Made by a program: the position numbers and the translations under genes. Source: Panacagrimonas sp. (GTDB lineage: Bacteria; Pseudomonadota; Gammaproteobacteria; Nevskiales; Nevskiaceae). Taken from it: a stretch of DNA of 64,000 bases. Positions within the stretch are counted from its first letter, which is position 1, and each line of letters begins with the position of its first letter. The notes beneath the pieces are model-generated. The model saw only the letters and a list, made by a program, of their open reading frames with translations, was not told the origin of the DNA and did not search any database. The stretch lies in contig NZ_JAJFBP010000017.1 in assembly GCF_020697055.1 (NCBI RefSeq), positions 1 through 64,000 on the forward strand, in the 5' to 3' direction. Shown one piece after another: positions 30,678-37,279 of the stretch.

Positions 30678-31712
30678 ATGGACAGCCTCCGAATTTCCGA
30701 TGTGGTGGTCGCCGCGGGCGAACGCCGCCTGGTCAACATCCCCGTCGCCAAGCTGACCACCAGCCAGCCGGTGCTGCTGCCGGTGATCGTGCACCGCGGC
30801 ACGCGGGCCGGGCCGACGATGTTCCTGAGCGCCGCGCTGCACGGCGACGAGATCATCGGCGTCGAGATCATCCGCCGCGTGCTCAAGATTCCGGAGCTCT
30901 CCGAACTCAAGGGCACGCTGCTGGCGGTGCCGATCGTCAACACGCTCGCGTTCATCCACCAGTCGCGCTACCTGCCCGACCGGCGCGATCTCAATCGCAG
31001 CTTCCCAGGCAGTTCCGGCGGCTCGCTGGCGGCGCGACTGGCCTGGCTGTTCCTGCGCGAAGTGGTGGGCCGCTGCGATTTCGGCATCGACCTGCACACC
31101 GGCGCGGTGCACCGGCCCAACCTGCCGCAGATCCGCACCGATCTGCGCAACGAGACCAACGTGCGCCTGGCCAAGGCCTTCGGCGCGCCGCTGTTCCTGG
31201 ATTCGCTGCCCACCGACGGAACGCTGCGCCAGTACACGACCAAGAAGAACATCCCGGTGATCCTGTACGAATCGGGCGAGGCGCTGCGCTTCGACGAGAC
31301 CGCCATCCGCGTGGGCGTGCAGGGCGTGCAGAACGTGATGTGGGAGATGGGCCTGCTCGATCGGCCGCCGTTCTCGCCGCTGCGCGCGGCCGAGCCGGTG
31401 CTGGCGCATTCGAGCCGCTGGATCCGCGCCGCCTCGAGCGGAATCCTGCGCACCGGCATCGCGCTGGGCGATCACGTCCGCAGAGGCCAGGTGCTGGGCA
31501 TCATCGGCGACCCGTTCGGCGAGTCCGAGCAGGCCGTGGTGTCGCCCACCGAAGGCGTGGTGATCGGCCGGCTCAACCTGCCGCTGGTGCACGAGGGCGA
31601 CGCGTTGTTCCACGTCGGCACGTTCGAGGTGCCCGAGGACGCCAAGCAGGCGGTCGATCAGCTGTCCGCCGAGATGCGGACGCGCACCGGCGAAGAGCCG
31701 CCGATCGTCTAG
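30678..31712 (+). CDS. Succinylglutamate desuccinylase/aspartoacylase-family deacylase
   Basis: A 344-residue zinc carboxypeptidase-like deacylase. Zinc ligands are in SAALHGDEIIG (His, Glu) and GIDLHTG (His); RDLNRSFPG binds the substrate carboxylate, and LYESGE supplies the catalytic Glu. The C-terminal 100 residues form a small beta domain as in AstE/AspA proteins. Members of this subgroup often sit beside rimK, which suggests it trims or deacylates a glutamate-containing product (inference). Its stop shares CTAG (31709-31712) with the stop of the convergent AraC gene. Confidence 0.88.
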   Translation: MDSLRISDVVVAAGERRLVNIPVAKLTTSQPVLLPVIVHRGTRAGPTMFLSAALHGDEIIGVEIIRRVLKIPELSELKGTLLAVPIVNTLAFIHQSRYLPDRRDLNRSFPGSSGGSLAARLAWLFLREVVGRCDFGIDLHTGAVHRPNLPQIRTDLRNETNVRLAKAFGAPLFLDSLPTDGTLRQYTTKKNIPVILYESGEALRFDETAIRVGVQGVQNVMWEMGLLDRPPFSPLRAAEPVLAHSSRWIRAASSGILRTGIALGDHVRRGQVLGIIGDPFGESEQAVVSPTEGVVIGRLNLPLVHEGDALFHVGTFEVPEDAKQAVDQLSAEMRTRTGEEPPIV

Positions 31713-32761
31713 AGCCGCCCGGCCGTGACCGCGTTGACGTCGGCCACGACGCGTCGGCGATACGCGCCGGGGGATTCCCCGTTCCAGCGTCGGAACGCGT
31801 GCTGAAACGGACTCTGCTCCGAGTAGCCGAGCAGGAACGCCACTTCGGCGAGCGAGACGCGCGGATCGCGCAGATGCCGCTCCGCGTGACTGCGACGCAC
31901 GTCGTCGAGCACTTCGCGAAAGGATAACGAGGCCTGATCGAGCCGACGCTGCAGCGTGCGCGGCGCCAGCCTCAGATCCTGCGCCGCGTGCGCCAGCGTG
32001 CAGCGGCCGCTGGCGAGCTTGAGCGACAGCACCGTCTTGAGCTCGCGCACGAAATCCGGTTCGTCGCGCGCGCGCTGCCCGAGCATCGATTCGGCCTGTT
32101 CCTGCAGCACGCGATGCGTATGCAGGTCGGAGTGCGCGATGCGCAGATCCAGGTAATCGGTCGGCATCACCAGTCGCGTTGCCGGCTGATCGAAGCGCAC
32201 ATTGCCGCCGAAGATCCGCGCGTACTCCGTGACGTCGCGCGGTCGCGGGAACTCGAAGCAGGCGTCCGCGCGCAGGTCGGGCCGGTCGGTGAGCAGGCGC
32301 GCGAAGCAGATCCATCCGGACAGCGAGAGCTGCGACATCGTCGGCGAGGCCTTGGCGCTCGCCGGCAGCCAGTGCACCGCGGCGTGTTTCTTTCCGACGA
32401 CCAGCTTCGAATCGTTGATGTCGTCGGTGAGGCGCTCGTAGCGGCCCATCATCGCGATCACGTCGTGCAGCGTTCCGCAGGCCATCGCGAGGTAGCCGAG
32501 CATGCCGTAGTGGCGCGGCTTGTAGGACTCGCCGACCTTCAGCGGCAGATGCGCGTCGCCCGTCGCGACGATCGCCGCGTCGAACATCGCCTGCCAGCGA
32601 CGCAGTGGAATGGGTGTGCGGGCGTCGTCCGATTCGATCGCCTTCAGCAGATCGGCGTCGACCAACCGCGCCGGATCGACGCCGCGGCCGCGCAGGTAGT
32701 CGACCAGCGCGCGCGCATGGGCCGCGATGATCTTTCCGCCTTCCGGTTCCGCCTGGGTCAT
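31709..32761 (-). CDS. AraC-family regulator with arabinose-binding-type N-domain
   Basis: A 350-residue regulator. The N-terminal 200 residues match the PF12625-type effector domain seen in OruR/ArgR-like AraC proteins. The C-terminal 90 hold two helix-turn-helix motifs (CTLAHAAQDLRLAPRTLQRRL and VSLAEVAFLLGYSEQSPFQ). The ATG at 32761 is chosen over an upstream ATG at 32860. It is divergent from the ceramidase-like gene with 101 bp between the starts, so it is the likely activator of that operon. No palindrome stands out in the gap. Confidence 0.9.
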   Translation of the reverse strand: MTQAEPEGGKIIAAHARALVDYLRGRGVDPARLVDADLLKAIESDDARTPIPLRRWQAMFDAAIVATGDAHLPLKVGESYKPRHYGMLGYLAMACGTLHDVIAMMGRYERLTDDINDSKLVVGKKHAAVHWLPASAKASPTMSQLSLSGWICFARLLTDRPDLRADACFEFPRPRDVTEYARIFGGNVRFDQPATRLVMPTDYLDLRIAHSDLHTHRVLQEQAESMLGQRARDEPDFVRELKTVLSLKLASGRCTLAHAAQDLRLAPRTLQRRLDQASLSFREVLDDVRRSHAERHLRDPRVSLAEVAFLLGYSEQSPFQHAFRRWNGESPGAYRRRVVADVNAVTAGRL

Positions 32762-32862
32762 GCCGCCTCCGTGGCGCGATTTCTCAATGACCGGGCGCCA
32801 TTCGTCAAGACCAGAATCCGGGCGATCGCCATGCTTGGCGCCGCACGATGAGGAGCACACCG

Positions 32863-34587
32863 ATGTACCGGGCGGGATGGAGTCGACGGGAGATCGCGGT
32901 CCAGGCGCGGGGCCACGCCATGCACGGCTACGGCAACTGGCGTCAGCGCGCGCGCTCGCAGCGCTCGCCGCTGTTTGCGCGCGCGTTGTTCCTGCAGGAC
33001 GAGCAGGGCAAGACCGTGGATTTCTGCTGCCTGGACCTGGGATACGTCACGCACGCGATGCGGGCCGGTGTGTGCGCGCGATTGCAATCGACGCTCGGCG
33101 AGGCGTTCGACGCGGCCGCGCTCGTGCTGACGTGCACGCACACGCACTCGGGTCCCGGCGGGTGCACGCACGACGTGCTCTACAACGTCGTCACGCCCGG
33201 CTTCGTGCCGGCGCATCTGGAGGCGGTGATCGCCACCACCGTCGAGGCGATCCTCGCGGCCCGCGCCCACGCCGCGCCGACGTCCCTTTCACTGTCGCGC
33301 GGCGATTTCGACGCGAACGTGCCGGTCGCATGGAACCGCTCGTTGCGCGCCTACAACCGCAACCCCGACGTGCGCCCTCGCGGCGACACCGAGGCCCACC
33401 TGGCGCTGGACCGCTCCATGCAGGTGCTCGGCCTGCGCCGCGAAGGCCGGCTGCACGCGGTCGTGTCGCTGTTCGGCGTGCACGCCACCTGCGTCGGGAG
33501 CTCGCAGAACCGGTACGACGGCGACAACAAGGGCTACGCCGCGACGCAGGCCGAAGACGCGCTGCGCCGCTCCGGCGTCGAAGACGCGGTGGCGATCTTC
33601 GCGCAGGCCACCGCGGGCGACGTGTCGCCGCACTTCCACGGCCCCGGCCAGGAGCGGATCCGGCGTCGGATCCGCGGCGAGGCGGAGTACGCCTACGCGG
33701 AGCAGAACGGTCGTCACCAAAGCCGTCGCGCGATGTCGCTGACGGCCGCGCCCGGTGTGGAAACCGCGATCAGCGGCGGGATCGACGCGATCTTGAGCTA
33801 CGTCGACTTCACGTCGATCCATGCCGATCCGCGCTACGCCGGCGGACAAGCGCAGGCCTGGACCAGCCAGCCGTGCCACGGCGCGGCGTTCTTCGGCGGC
33901 ACGCCGGTGGACGGCCGCACCGCCTCGAACGCGGTCGTGGCCGCCGCGGGCAGCGCCGCGCAGGCGCTGAAGGCCTGGCGGCTGAGCGCGGCCAACCCCA
34001 TCTCGCCCGAGCAGCGCGAATCGTATCGGCGCCTGTATGCCGCGCAGGGCGCCAAGGCGATCCTGCTGGAGACCGGCGGCAAGCGGATCCTCGGCCGGCC
34101 GCTGGAGCAGCTCGTGCTGCCCGACTTCCTCGATCCCAACCTCAAGGAGCTCAAGCGTCTCGCGCGCCTGGGCGCCGTGCGGGAAAGCGATCTGGTGCCC
34201 ACGGTGCTGCCGCTGCAGATCGTGACGATCGGTCCGCTGGCGCTGGTCTGCTGTCCGGGTGAATTCACGACGATGGCGGGCGCGCGCGTCGTGCAGGCGG
34301 TGCGGTCGGTGCTGGGCGAGCGCGCCGGCGAAGTGCTGATCTGCACCTACTGCAACGACTACATGGGCTACGTCACGACGCGCGAGGAGTACGAGGAACA
34401 GGCGTACGAAGGCGGACACACGATCTTCGGACAGTGGACGCTCGCGGCGTTTCAGACCCGGTTTGCGCAGCTCGCCGCCGAGATGCTGAAACCGGTGGAC
34501 GCGCGCCGCCACGATCGGCGCACGCAGCCGCGCGCGGCGGTGGCCGCCGAACTGGCGCTTCGAACCGATCTGCCGGTGCCGGGATGA
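32863..34587 (+). CDS. Neutral ceramidase-like hydrolase, no signal peptide
   Basis: A 574-residue protein of the neutral/alkaline ceramidase family. It keeps the catalytic features of the Pseudomonas enzyme: zinc-binding THTHSGPGG and FGVHAT, nucleophile Ser255 in AGDVSP, PGEFT (Glu ligand) and YMGYVTTREEY (Tyr ligand). It would hydrolyse an N-acyl amide. Unlike secreted ceramidases it has no signal peptide and stops before the usual C-terminal Ig-like domain. The ATG at 32863 has AGGAG at 32851-32855; the ATG at 32848 is too close to serve. Its stop overlaps the next start (ATGA). Confidence 0.9.
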   Translation: MYRAGWSRREIAVQARGHAMHGYGNWRQRARSQRSPLFARALFLQDEQGKTVDFCCLDLGYVTHAMRAGVCARLQSTLGEAFDAAALVLTCTHTHSGPGGCTHDVLYNVVTPGFVPAHLEAVIATTVEAILAARAHAAPTSLSLSRGDFDANVPVAWNRSLRAYNRNPDVRPRGDTEAHLALDRSMQVLGLRREGRLHAVVSLFGVHATCVGSSQNRYDGDNKGYAATQAEDALRRSGVEDAVAIFAQATAGDVSPHFHGPGQERIRRRIRGEAEYAYAEQNGRHQSRRAMSLTAAPGVETAISGGIDAILSYVDFTSIHADPRYAGGQAQAWTSQPCHGAAFFGGTPVDGRTASNAVVAAAGSAAQALKAWRLSAANPISPEQRESYRRLYAAQGAKAILLETGGKRILGRPLEQLVLPDFLDPNLKELKRLARLGAVRESDLVPTVLPLQIVTIGPLALVCCPGEFTTMAGARVVQAVRSVLGERAGEVLICTYCNDYMGYVTTREEYEEQAYEGGHTIFGQWTLAAFQTRFAQLAAEMLKPVDARRHDRRTQPRAAVAAELALRTDLPVPG

Positions 34588-35999
34588 ACAACATGACCGG
34601 ACGTGATGCTGGGCCCGACGTCCGACGACGGCGGCTGCTCAAGGCCGGGCTCGCGCTCGCGGGCGGCGCAGCGGTGGGCCCCGGCCTGTCGGGCTGCGGC
34701 AAGGCGTCGAAGAACCCCGTTCCCGGCGACGCCGCGTGGCGCAACTGGTCGGGGTCGCAGGTCTCCGCGCCCAGGGCCTGGCTCAACCCCCGCGACGAAG
34801 CCGAACTGGCCGCCCAGATGCGAGCGGCGAGCGGCACGCTGCGGGTGACCGGCGCGAGCCATTCGTTCAGCGCGCTGTGCAACACCGACGACACGCTGTT
34901 CTCGCTGGACCACCTCAGCGGCGTGGTCAGCCACGACGTGCAGACGCTGCAGGCGACGGTCTGGGCCGGCACGCGGCTGCGTGACCTGGGCGGGCCGCTG
35001 TGGGATCGGGGCCAGGCGCTGTCCAACCAGGGCGACGTCGATCCGCAGTCGGTGGGCGGCGCATGCGGCACCAGCACGCACGGCACCGGCATCACGCTCG
35101 GCTCGTTCTCGTCGATGGTGCGCGGTGTGCGCCTGGTCACCCCGCAGGGCGAGATCGTCGAGGCCGACGCCGAGCACGACGCCGAGGTCTTCCAGGCCGC
35201 CGCGACCTCGCTCGGCGCGCTGGGCATCGCCAGCCAGATCCGCCTGCAGAACCGTGCGCCGTACAAGCTGCACGAGCGCGAATTCCTCGAAGACCTGCCG
35301 TCGGTGCTCTCGAAGCTCGACGCCTACGTGCGCGACAACCGTCACTTCGAGTTCTGGGCGTTCTTCGAAACCGACCGCGCGATCGTCAAGCTGCTCAACG
35401 AGACCGCCGCCGAGGACACGCCGCCGCCGTCGCTGGAACTGCCGGTGGACCACGTGCTCGACCTCGCCTCCGAGATCGCCCACAACGTCGGCGGCATGGA
35501 CGGCGCGATGCAGAAGCTGCTCACCGTGCTGCATACCGACAGCGAGCGCGTGGGCCGCGCGCACGCGATCTTCCCGACGCCGCGCAATTCACGCTTCAAC
35601 GAGATGGAATACGAGCTCCCCGCGGCCAAGGGTCCGGAATGCCTGATGGAGATCCTGGAAACGGTGCGCAAGTCGGGCATCCGCACGCTGTTCCCGGTGG
35701 AGTACCGCACCGTGGCCGCGGACACGTGCTGGCTGTCCCCGTTCTACGATCGCGACACGGCGTCGATCTCGGTGCACCAGTACCACAAGGTCGACTACCG
35801 CGAACTGTTCGACCTCGTCGAGCCGATCTTCTGGAAATACGAAGGCCGACCGCACTGGGGCAAGCTGCACCGGCTCGAGGCCCGGCAGTTGGCTCCGCTC
35901 TATCCGCGCTGGGACGATTTCCGGCGCGTGCGTGAGCGCCTCGACCCCGCAGGCCGGATGCTCAGCGCGCACCTGCGCAGGCTGCTGGTGACCGCGTGA
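34584..35999 (+). CDS. Exported FAD-linked oxidase, D-arabinono-1,4-lactone oxidase family
   Basis: A 471-residue flavoprotein. The leader RRRRLLKAG (14-22) is twin-arginine-like and ends in a lipobox-like LSGC (Cys38), so it is probably a Tat-exported lipoprotein or periplasmic enzyme. The FAD_binding_4 domain (about 60-230) shows TGASHSFSAL and VGGACGTSTHGTG; the C-terminal ALO domain ends with GRPHWGKLH. Family members oxidise sugar lactones or alditols at a C-OH with oxygen or a dehydrogenase acceptor. It overlaps both neighbours by 4 bp, so all three genes are translated together. Confidence 0.9.
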   Translation: MNNMTGRDAGPDVRRRRLLKAGLALAGGAAVGPGLSGCGKASKNPVPGDAAWRNWSGSQVSAPRAWLNPRDEAELAAQMRAASGTLRVTGASHSFSALCNTDDTLFSLDHLSGVVSHDVQTLQATVWAGTRLRDLGGPLWDRGQALSNQGDVDPQSVGGACGTSTHGTGITLGSFSSMVRGVRLVTPQGEIVEADAEHDAEVFQAAATSLGALGIASQIRLQNRAPYKLHEREFLEDLPSVLSKLDAYVRDNRHFEFWAFFETDRAIVKLLNETAAEDTPPPSLELPVDHVLDLASEIAHNVGGMDGAMQKLLTVLHTDSERVGRAHAIFPTPRNSRFNEMEYELPAAKGPECLMEILETVRKSGIRTLFPVEYRTVAADTCWLSPFYDRDTASISVHQYHKVDYRELFDLVEPIFWKYEGRPHWGKLHRLEARQLAPLYPRWDDFRRVRERLDPAGRMLSAHLRRLLVTA

Positions 36000-37279
36000 A
36001 GCGGCGGCGCCTGCTGCTCGGTGGCCTGGGATTGGGCGCGGCCGTCCTTGGAGCCGGCGCGCTGCTGCGTCCGGACGACGAGGGCGCGCCGCACGATGCG
36101 TATTTCGCCGCGCTGAACCAGGAGCTCAAGGAGAACGGTCCGATGCGGCCCTGCCTGCTGATCGACCTCGACCGGCTGGATCACAACATCGATCAGGTGG
36201 TGGCCTCGGTGGCCCGTCATCGCGGGCGGCGCTACCGCATCGTCGAGAAGTCGCTGCCGTCGCCCGGGCTGATCGACTACGTGATGCGGCGCTCCGGCAG
36301 CCGCCGGCTGATGTCGTTTCATCAACCGTTTCTCAACCACGACGCGGCCCGGTTCCCCGACGCCGACATCCTGCTCGGCAAGCCGCTGCCCGTGCGCTCG
36401 GTGGAGCGGTTCTACCGCGAGCTCAAAGGCGGCTTCGATCCGTCGCGACAGCTGCAATGGCTGGTCGATACGCCCGAGCGGGTGGCCCAGTACCTCGAGC
36501 TCGCGCGCGGCCTGGAAACGCGGTTGCGGCTCAACATCGAGATCGACGTGGGCCTGCATCGGGGCGGCGTGACGGATCCGGCGATGCTCTCGATGATGCT
36601 CGGCACGATCGCCGCGCATCCCGACCAGCTGGGCTTCGCCGGATTCATGGGGTACGACCCCCATGTTGGCATGGGCGTGCCGCGGATCCTGGGCACGCCA
36701 CAGGAGCTGCTCGCCAAGGCCATGGGCCTCTATCAGGGGTACGTCGACCAGCTGCGGGGCGAGCATGCCGATCTCTGGCATGAGGACCTCACGCTCAACA
36801 CCGCCGGCAGCCCGACCTACCGCCTTCACGAGGCCGAAACGCTGTCCAACGACATCTCGGTCGGAACCGGGCTGCTCAAGCCGGGCCACTACGACCTGCC
36901 CTCGCTGGCCGAGCACCACCCCGCCGCCTGGATCGCGACGCCCGTGCTGAAGTCCACCGGATCCGTTCGCATTCCGGCGCTCGACGAGCGCTCGCGCGTC
37001 TTGTCCTGGTGGGACGTGAACCAGCGCCAGACGTTCTTCATCTACGGCGGGAACTGGATGGCGGACTACGCCTCGCCCCGTGGACTGCACGCGAATGCGA
37101 TCTACGGCCGCAGCTCCAACCAGGAGATCGTCAACGGTCCGGCTTCGATGGGCCTGGCAGTCGACGACCTCGTCTTCCTGCGCCCGCACCAGAGCGAAGG
37201 CGTGCTGCTGCATTTCGGCGATCTGCTCGCCGTGCGCGGTGGCCGCATCCAGGAGCAGTGGCCGGTGTTCGCCGGGTAG
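35996..37279 (+). CDS. Exported PLP-dependent aldolase/racemase-like protein (DSD1-type)
   Basis: A 427-residue protein with an alanine racemase-type barrel. The PLP Lys is Lys85 in VEKSLPSPG; IEIDVGLHRGG and GFMGYDPHVG lie along the barrel. The C-terminal domain has LRPHQSEGV in place of the metal-binding NHxCxT of D-threonine aldolases, so the metal site is altered. A short twin-arginine-like leader (RRRLLLGG, 3-10) and hydrophobic stretch suggest export, unusual for a PLP enzyme. Start GTG at 35996, overlapping the FAD oxidase stop. It probably acts on a beta-hydroxy amine or D-amino acid. Confidence 0.83.
   Translation: MKRRRLLLGGLGLGAAVLGAGALLRPDDEGAPHDAYFAALNQELKENGPMRPCLLIDLDRLDHNIDQVVASVARHRGRRYRIVEKSLPSPGLIDYVMRRSGSRRLMSFHQPFLNHDAARFPDADILLGKPLPVRSVERFYRELKGGFDPSRQLQWLVDTPERVAQYLELARGLETRLRLNIEIDVGLHRGGVTDPAMLSMMLGTIAAHPDQLGFAGFMGYDPHVGMGVPRILGTPQELLAKAMGLYQGYVDQLRGEHADLWHEDLTLNTAGSPTYRLHEAETLSNDISVGTGLLKPGHYDLPSLAEHHPAAWIATPVLKSTGSVRIPALDERSRVLSWWDVNQRQTFFIYGGNWMADYASPRGLHANAIYGRSSNQEIVNGPASMGLAVDDLVFLRPHQSEGVLLHFGDLLAVRGGRIQEQWPVFAG

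Follow-up and report, generated by a model that had tools for sequence, protein, structure and literature searches.

Genes at the locus

The window (the whole stretch of 64,000 nucleotides of Panacagrimonas sp. DNA analysed here) contains three genes that run in one direction, away from a regulator gene on the opposite strand. The features considered are the following:

31709-32761, minus strand: AraC-type regulator (Arabinose_bd + HTH_18), divergent from the operon, start at 32761
32762-32862: intergenic region of 101 bp from the AraC start to the ceramidase start, presumed to hold divergent promoters
32863-34587, plus strand: ceramidase-type amidase, open frame of 574 aa
34584-35999, plus strand: FAD oxidase (ALO/TIGR01679 family, SphC homologue), open frame
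35996-37279, plus strand: PLP enzyme, SphD orthologue with a D-threonine aldolase fold and a Tat-type leader, open frame

The first-pass annotation had described three genes overlapping by 4 bp at each junction and facing an AraC gene, and the frames and junctions agree with it, the overlaps being ATGA at 34584-34587 and GTGA at 35996-35999. On its other side, the AraC gene is adjoined by a convergent gene for an AstE/AspA-type zinc deacylase (30678-31712).

The first product matches the Pfam family Ceramidase_alk (2.5e-90), is about 28% identical to the solved Pseudomonas aeruginosa ceramidase and yields a model of moderate confidence (mean pLDDT 69) whose best structure matches are 2ZXC and 2ZWS. 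Its score of 230.7 bits against the CerN equivalog NF041649 does not reach the cut-off of 1200 bits. The residues that are catalytic or zinc-binding in the solved structure (2ZWS/2ZXC) are all kept: H97, H99, H204, S250, E411 and Y448 in 2ZWS chain numbering align with H93, H95, H207, S255, E467 and Y503 in the window protein, and the zinc ligands and catalytic residues are invariant across the seven short ceramidases aligned. A GAGGAG ribosome-binding site lies 5' of the ATG at 32863 and the protein begins MYRAGWSRREI, which leaves no room for a signal peptide; the start falls at the domain edge, and a Pfam search gave no match to the C-terminal domain PF17048. The earlier description of a ceramidase homologue that retains every catalytic residue and lacks a signal peptide is thus borne out by the alignment and the start site. 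Judged from these features, the protein is a short paralogue of CerN, of predicted cytosolic type, that is coupled to the pathway.

The second product carries the ALO (1.9e-61) and FAD_binding_4 (3.8e-22) domains and belongs to the TIGR01679 family. Its leader (VRRRRLLKAG...LSGC) is of the Tat type and has a lipobox (LSGC) at its end; the protein looks like a membrane-anchored lipoprotein. The third product matches Ala_racemase_N (3.1e-11) and has the leader KRRRLLLGG, in which the RR is retained in nearly all relatives; the twin-arginine-type leaders previously reported for the second and third genes were therefore correctly read. The PLP enzyme is 71% identical over its full length to SphD of P. 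aeruginosa PA7, lies within the SphD clade on the tree and is encoded next to an SphC-type oxidase gene, and we assign it as the SphD orthologue. Export of a PLP enzyme had been singled out as unusual, which may hold in general but is normal for SphD, since PA7 SphD has a leader of the same type.

The model of the PLP enzyme (mean pLDDT 81) is closest to D-threonine aldolase (4V15, Z 31.1) and beta-hydroxyaspartate aldolase (BhcC, 6QKB, Z 29.8), with alanine racemases scoring lower (Z about 24-27). SphD shares with these aldolases the fold and the PLP-lysine region, but differs from them in its Tat-type leader and is only 18-22% identical in structure alignment. In a weak sequence alignment, the metal-ligand His of the aldolases (His-x-Asp/Cys site) falls opposite Gln, Ile or Val in SphD, and the Asp opposite an invariant Glu. 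A second SphD copy, reduced to a C-terminal fragment, was seen downstream of an intact gene in another genome (L039:12104-12400).

Relation to the sphingosine pathway of Pseudomonas

The first-pass annotation knew of no described pathway with this gene set, which was wrong, as sphBCD and cerN of P. aeruginosa had already been described. For that organism, LaBauve and Wargo (2014; PMC3900636) put forward almost identical chemistry for SphC and SphD and placed CerN in one regulon with them. The published regulon is induced by sphingosine: the base is bound by SphR, a member of the AraC family, which switches on sphA, sphBCD and the neutral ceramidase gene cerN. A 2025 study found that sphBC is needed for sphingosine metabolism and depletion and that sphD is dispensable for growth; the reaction product was not identified, and direct action of SphB and SphC was left undecided (PMC11893366). 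In the PA7 genome (L118), we found sphB, sphC and sphD, then sphA and sphR beside argB, which matches the PAO1 map (PMC3900636). The sequence originally suggested, amide hydrolysis, oxidation and C-C cleavage of a sphingoid-like molecule, remains the best reading and agrees with the 2014 proposal.

The window operon resembles sphBCD (PA5328-PA5326) and the SphR regulon, which includes cerN (PA0845) and sphA, in its SphD, in an SphC homologue with a Tat leader, in having a ceramidase within the regulatory unit and in an AraC-type regulator beside the pathway genes. It departs from P. aeruginosa in that the ceramidase lies within the operon and is short and signal-less, SphB is absent, the oxidase belongs to another lineage and has a Gly gatekeeper, the AraC protein is not SphR and no SphR box is present. 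The earlier interpretation was partly right and overlooked the absence of SphB, the exchanged oxidase lineage and a regulator other than SphR.

The regulator has the expected AraC architecture (N-domain 8.1e-36, HTH_18 6.4e-18). A reciprocal best-hit search between it and PA7 SphR fails both ways, and no SphR box above shuffled background was found in the window upstream region, whereas the same scan recovers both PA7 boxes with no mismatch. Identification of the AraC gene as sphR, and of the operon as an SphR target, was rejected on these two results; with a regulator other than SphR, the operon gives no support for induction by sphingosine. In the accessible literature, three papers deal mainly with sphBCD and none describes this operon variant; within that literature, the architecture together with the oxidase exchange is an undescribed variant of a described sphingosine pathway.

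Gatekeeper residue and absence of a cytochrome c gene at the locus

The window oxidase shares its fold family with the aldonolactone oxidoreductases (plant GalDH, ALO and GULO), in which a single position, the oxygen gatekeeper at the flavin, bears on the electron acceptor: GalDH, with Ala, uses cytochrome c, ALO and GULO, both with Gly, use O2, and the A113G substitution raises the O2 reactivity of GalDH 70- to 300-fold (Boverio et al., 2024; PMC11099136). These enzymes act on sugar lactones and their overall identity to the window oxidase is low; what is shared is the gatekeeper position and the Ala/Gly contrast in acceptor. The site was set by alignment to 8QNR (GalDH, Ala) and 8QNC (the A113G variant). 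GalDH position 113 aligns with Gly in the window oxidase (NQGD) and with Ala in PA7 SphC (NMAD). An alternative placement at VWAGT/FGGGT was dropped, since alignment to 8QNC and to the wild type put the site elsewhere.

No CxxCH frame occurs within 1.5 kb upstream of the window oxidase gene, and SphB is absent from the locus. In a first set of homologues, such a frame lay within 1.5 kb upstream of all Ala, Ser and Pro enzymes (81/81) and of none with Gly (0/10). The enlarged set, restricted to 92 homologues with a clear motif by excluding distant paralogues without it, gave an upstream cytochrome c gene for 0 of 42 Gly enzymes, 28 of 29 with Ala or Ser and 19 of 21 with Pro, a test that covers nearby genes only. 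The sole exception to the Ala rule is a divergent sphC-sphD pair in G091 (L245:7270-9920), which has an Ala gatekeeper and is without a cytochrome c gene. The supported branches force at least three changes involving the Gly state, only about two independent pairs change in both features, and a sign test on the phylogeny, comparing gatekeeper with cytochrome, had three independent pairs, too few for significance. The association between Gly and the missing cytochrome is strong, but it is built on few independent events (2-3). Moreover, alditol oxidase (2VFR), although an oxidase, has Ala at the aligned site; Ala therefore does not exclude the use of O2, and Gly is likewise no proof of it.

The FAD enzyme tree places the window oxidase beside L038, L195, L047 and Halopseudomonas, separate from the clade of SphB-linked SphC. 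With the oxidase in a separate lineage and a canonical SphD, exchange of the oxidase is the simplest reading, and a cytochrome-dependent enzyme has apparently given way to one able to use O2 directly. A search for an SphB encoded elsewhere in the genome gave only one cytochrome-c-like match, a protein 37% identical to SphB that is encoded on the same contig (C9:71639), about 34 kb downstream of the operon.

Gene linkage across genomes

Ceramidase and oxidase genes no more than 8 kb apart form 12 pairs in 10 genomes of the family, whereas copy number and an assumed genome size of 4.3 Mb predict 0.19; such coupling is far beyond chance. The pair of FAD oxidase and PLP enzyme is found repeatedly in dozens of genomes, and a scan of bacterial genomes for the PLP family returned dozens of Pseudomonas and other loci. 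The short ceramidase gene abuts the FAD enzyme gene in three genomes (the window, G006 and G008), and in the same three the FAD enzyme gene abuts or nearly abuts that of the PLP enzyme. The clusters of G006 (L172) and G008 (L168) are like the window operon in that a short ceramidase, an FAD enzyme with a Gly gatekeeper and a PLP enzyme are adjacent and encoded in one direction. Unlike in the window, all three proteins are leaderless, similarity of the PLP enzyme to SphD is only about 24%, a TonB receptor, a PhyH dioxygenase and an SDR follow, and the regulator is of the TetR type; the trio thus recurs with diverged parts.

Long ceramidases stand beside related pairs of PLP enzyme and FAD oxidase in G004, G005, G028, G006 and G008, some of these pairs being followed by an MFS transporter, and in G007 an FAD enzyme gene lies beside a long ceramidase gene at a contig end. 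Whether the trio is found together elsewhere had been named beforehand as the check on the proposal, and ceramidase, FAD oxidase and PLP enzyme do recur together, in several arrangements, so that the proposal was not refuted on this point. In Solimonas (L111:7058-14132, also L109 and L115), sphB, sphC, sphD and cerN are followed in one direction by a further exported lipoprotein-like gene, in what is apparently a complete exported ceramide-degradation operon. As in the window, the ceramidase is linked to sphCD in one direction; in contrast, the Solimonas ceramidase is long, carries a lipoprotein-type signal and is the last of the four, SphB is present and the gatekeeper is Ala.

The short ceramidase type occurs in eight genomes of the order and is rare elsewhere in the class sample. 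The idea that it always accompanies the oxidase was rejected, as the two are paired in only three of the eight; in the remaining genomes the gene lies mostly beside those of a TonB receptor, a PhyH dioxygenase and an SDR, and one copy stands alone. Groupings of this kind (L167, L169-L172) suggest a cluster for sphingolipid uptake and degradation, in which the fatty acid set free might be a substrate of the PhyH-type dioxygenase. A short ceramidase frame in G091 (L178:1820-3451) contains one in-frame TGA.

Proposed pathway and alternatives

Homology, gene order and residue conservation make it probable, in our view, that the operon is a module for the degradation or detoxification of ceramide and sphingoid bases, a variant of the CerN-SphBCD set whose oxidase would most likely use O2. 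The ceramidase would hydrolyse the amide bond of ceramide, releasing a sphingoid base and a fatty acid, and the FAD enzyme would then oxidize the C1 hydroxyl of the base. Given the Gly gatekeeper and the lack of a cytochrome c partner, the electrons would most likely pass to O2, giving H2O2, instead of to SphB. SphD would finally cleave the C2-C3 bond in a retro-aldol reaction to yield a long-chain aldehyde together with glycine (or glycinal). If C1 of D-erythro-sphingosine (2S,3R) is oxidized to the carboxylate, C2 becomes 2R under the usual priority rules and the product would be a D-beta-hydroxy amino acid; compounds of this type are cleaved by the D-threonine and beta-hydroxyaspartate aldolases, whose folds are closest to SphD. 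The stereochemistry of oxidized sphingosine would thus suit the D-aldolase fold and offers a specific rationale for SphD acting after SphC. That the ceramidase looks cytosolic by its sequence while its partners look exported counts against this scheme, as does the dispensability of sphD for growth of P. aeruginosa.

A homologue that is probably independent of a cytochrome partner would allow the action of SphC and SphD on sphingosine to be followed through peroxide formation, in a simple assay needing three proteins encoded by a single operon. Since the Gly/Ala split is tied to the presence of SphB, a single residue would also predict which electron acceptor is used by each of some 90 homologues.

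With the same pathway and substrates, the electrons could instead go to a quinone in the membrane or to a cytochrome whose gene lies elsewhere, the absence of SphB reflecting rearrangement only. The apparent membrane anchoring of the oxidase, the cytochrome-c-like protein on the same contig and the retention of SphB by most Pro-type relatives would fit such a route, but we regard it as unlikely, because all 42 Gly enzymes, from several lineages, are without a neighbouring cytochrome c gene, and many of them are without an export leader and so could not meet a periplasmic cytochrome. It seems rather improbable that the ceramidase homologue cleaves a different N-acyl amine or amino alcohol, which the operon would degrade in place of sphingolipids. 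The low CerN score, the modest identity to the solved enzyme, the missing C-terminal domain and a regulator other than SphR speak for such a substrate; against it stand the intact catalytic residues, the coupling to an SphD so close to that of P. aeruginosa and the long, CerN-like ceramidases that relatives encode next to genes of these kinds. Turnover of the bacterium's own sphingolipids, to which a cytosolic-type ceramidase and an operon without a TonB receptor, porin or other importer would be suited, is very unlikely in view of the export leaders on the oxidase and SphD, the published response of the homologous known pathway to outside sphingolipids and the TonB or MFS importers beside these genes in relatives.

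Returning to the O2-linked degradation of sphingoid bases, a broader evolutionary reading is plausible, although we hold it tentatively. Cytochrome-free, O2-driven degradation may form a separate lineage, recognizable by Gly, that arose more than once with loss of SphB; in some lineages the whole set, importer included, would be cytosolic, and the window operon would be an intermediate stage that retained the exported SphD but exchanged the oxidase and ceramidase. On the FAD enzyme tree, L107, from a contig labelled Verrucomicrobia, falls inside Nevskia sequences and is probably mis-binned or mislabelled.
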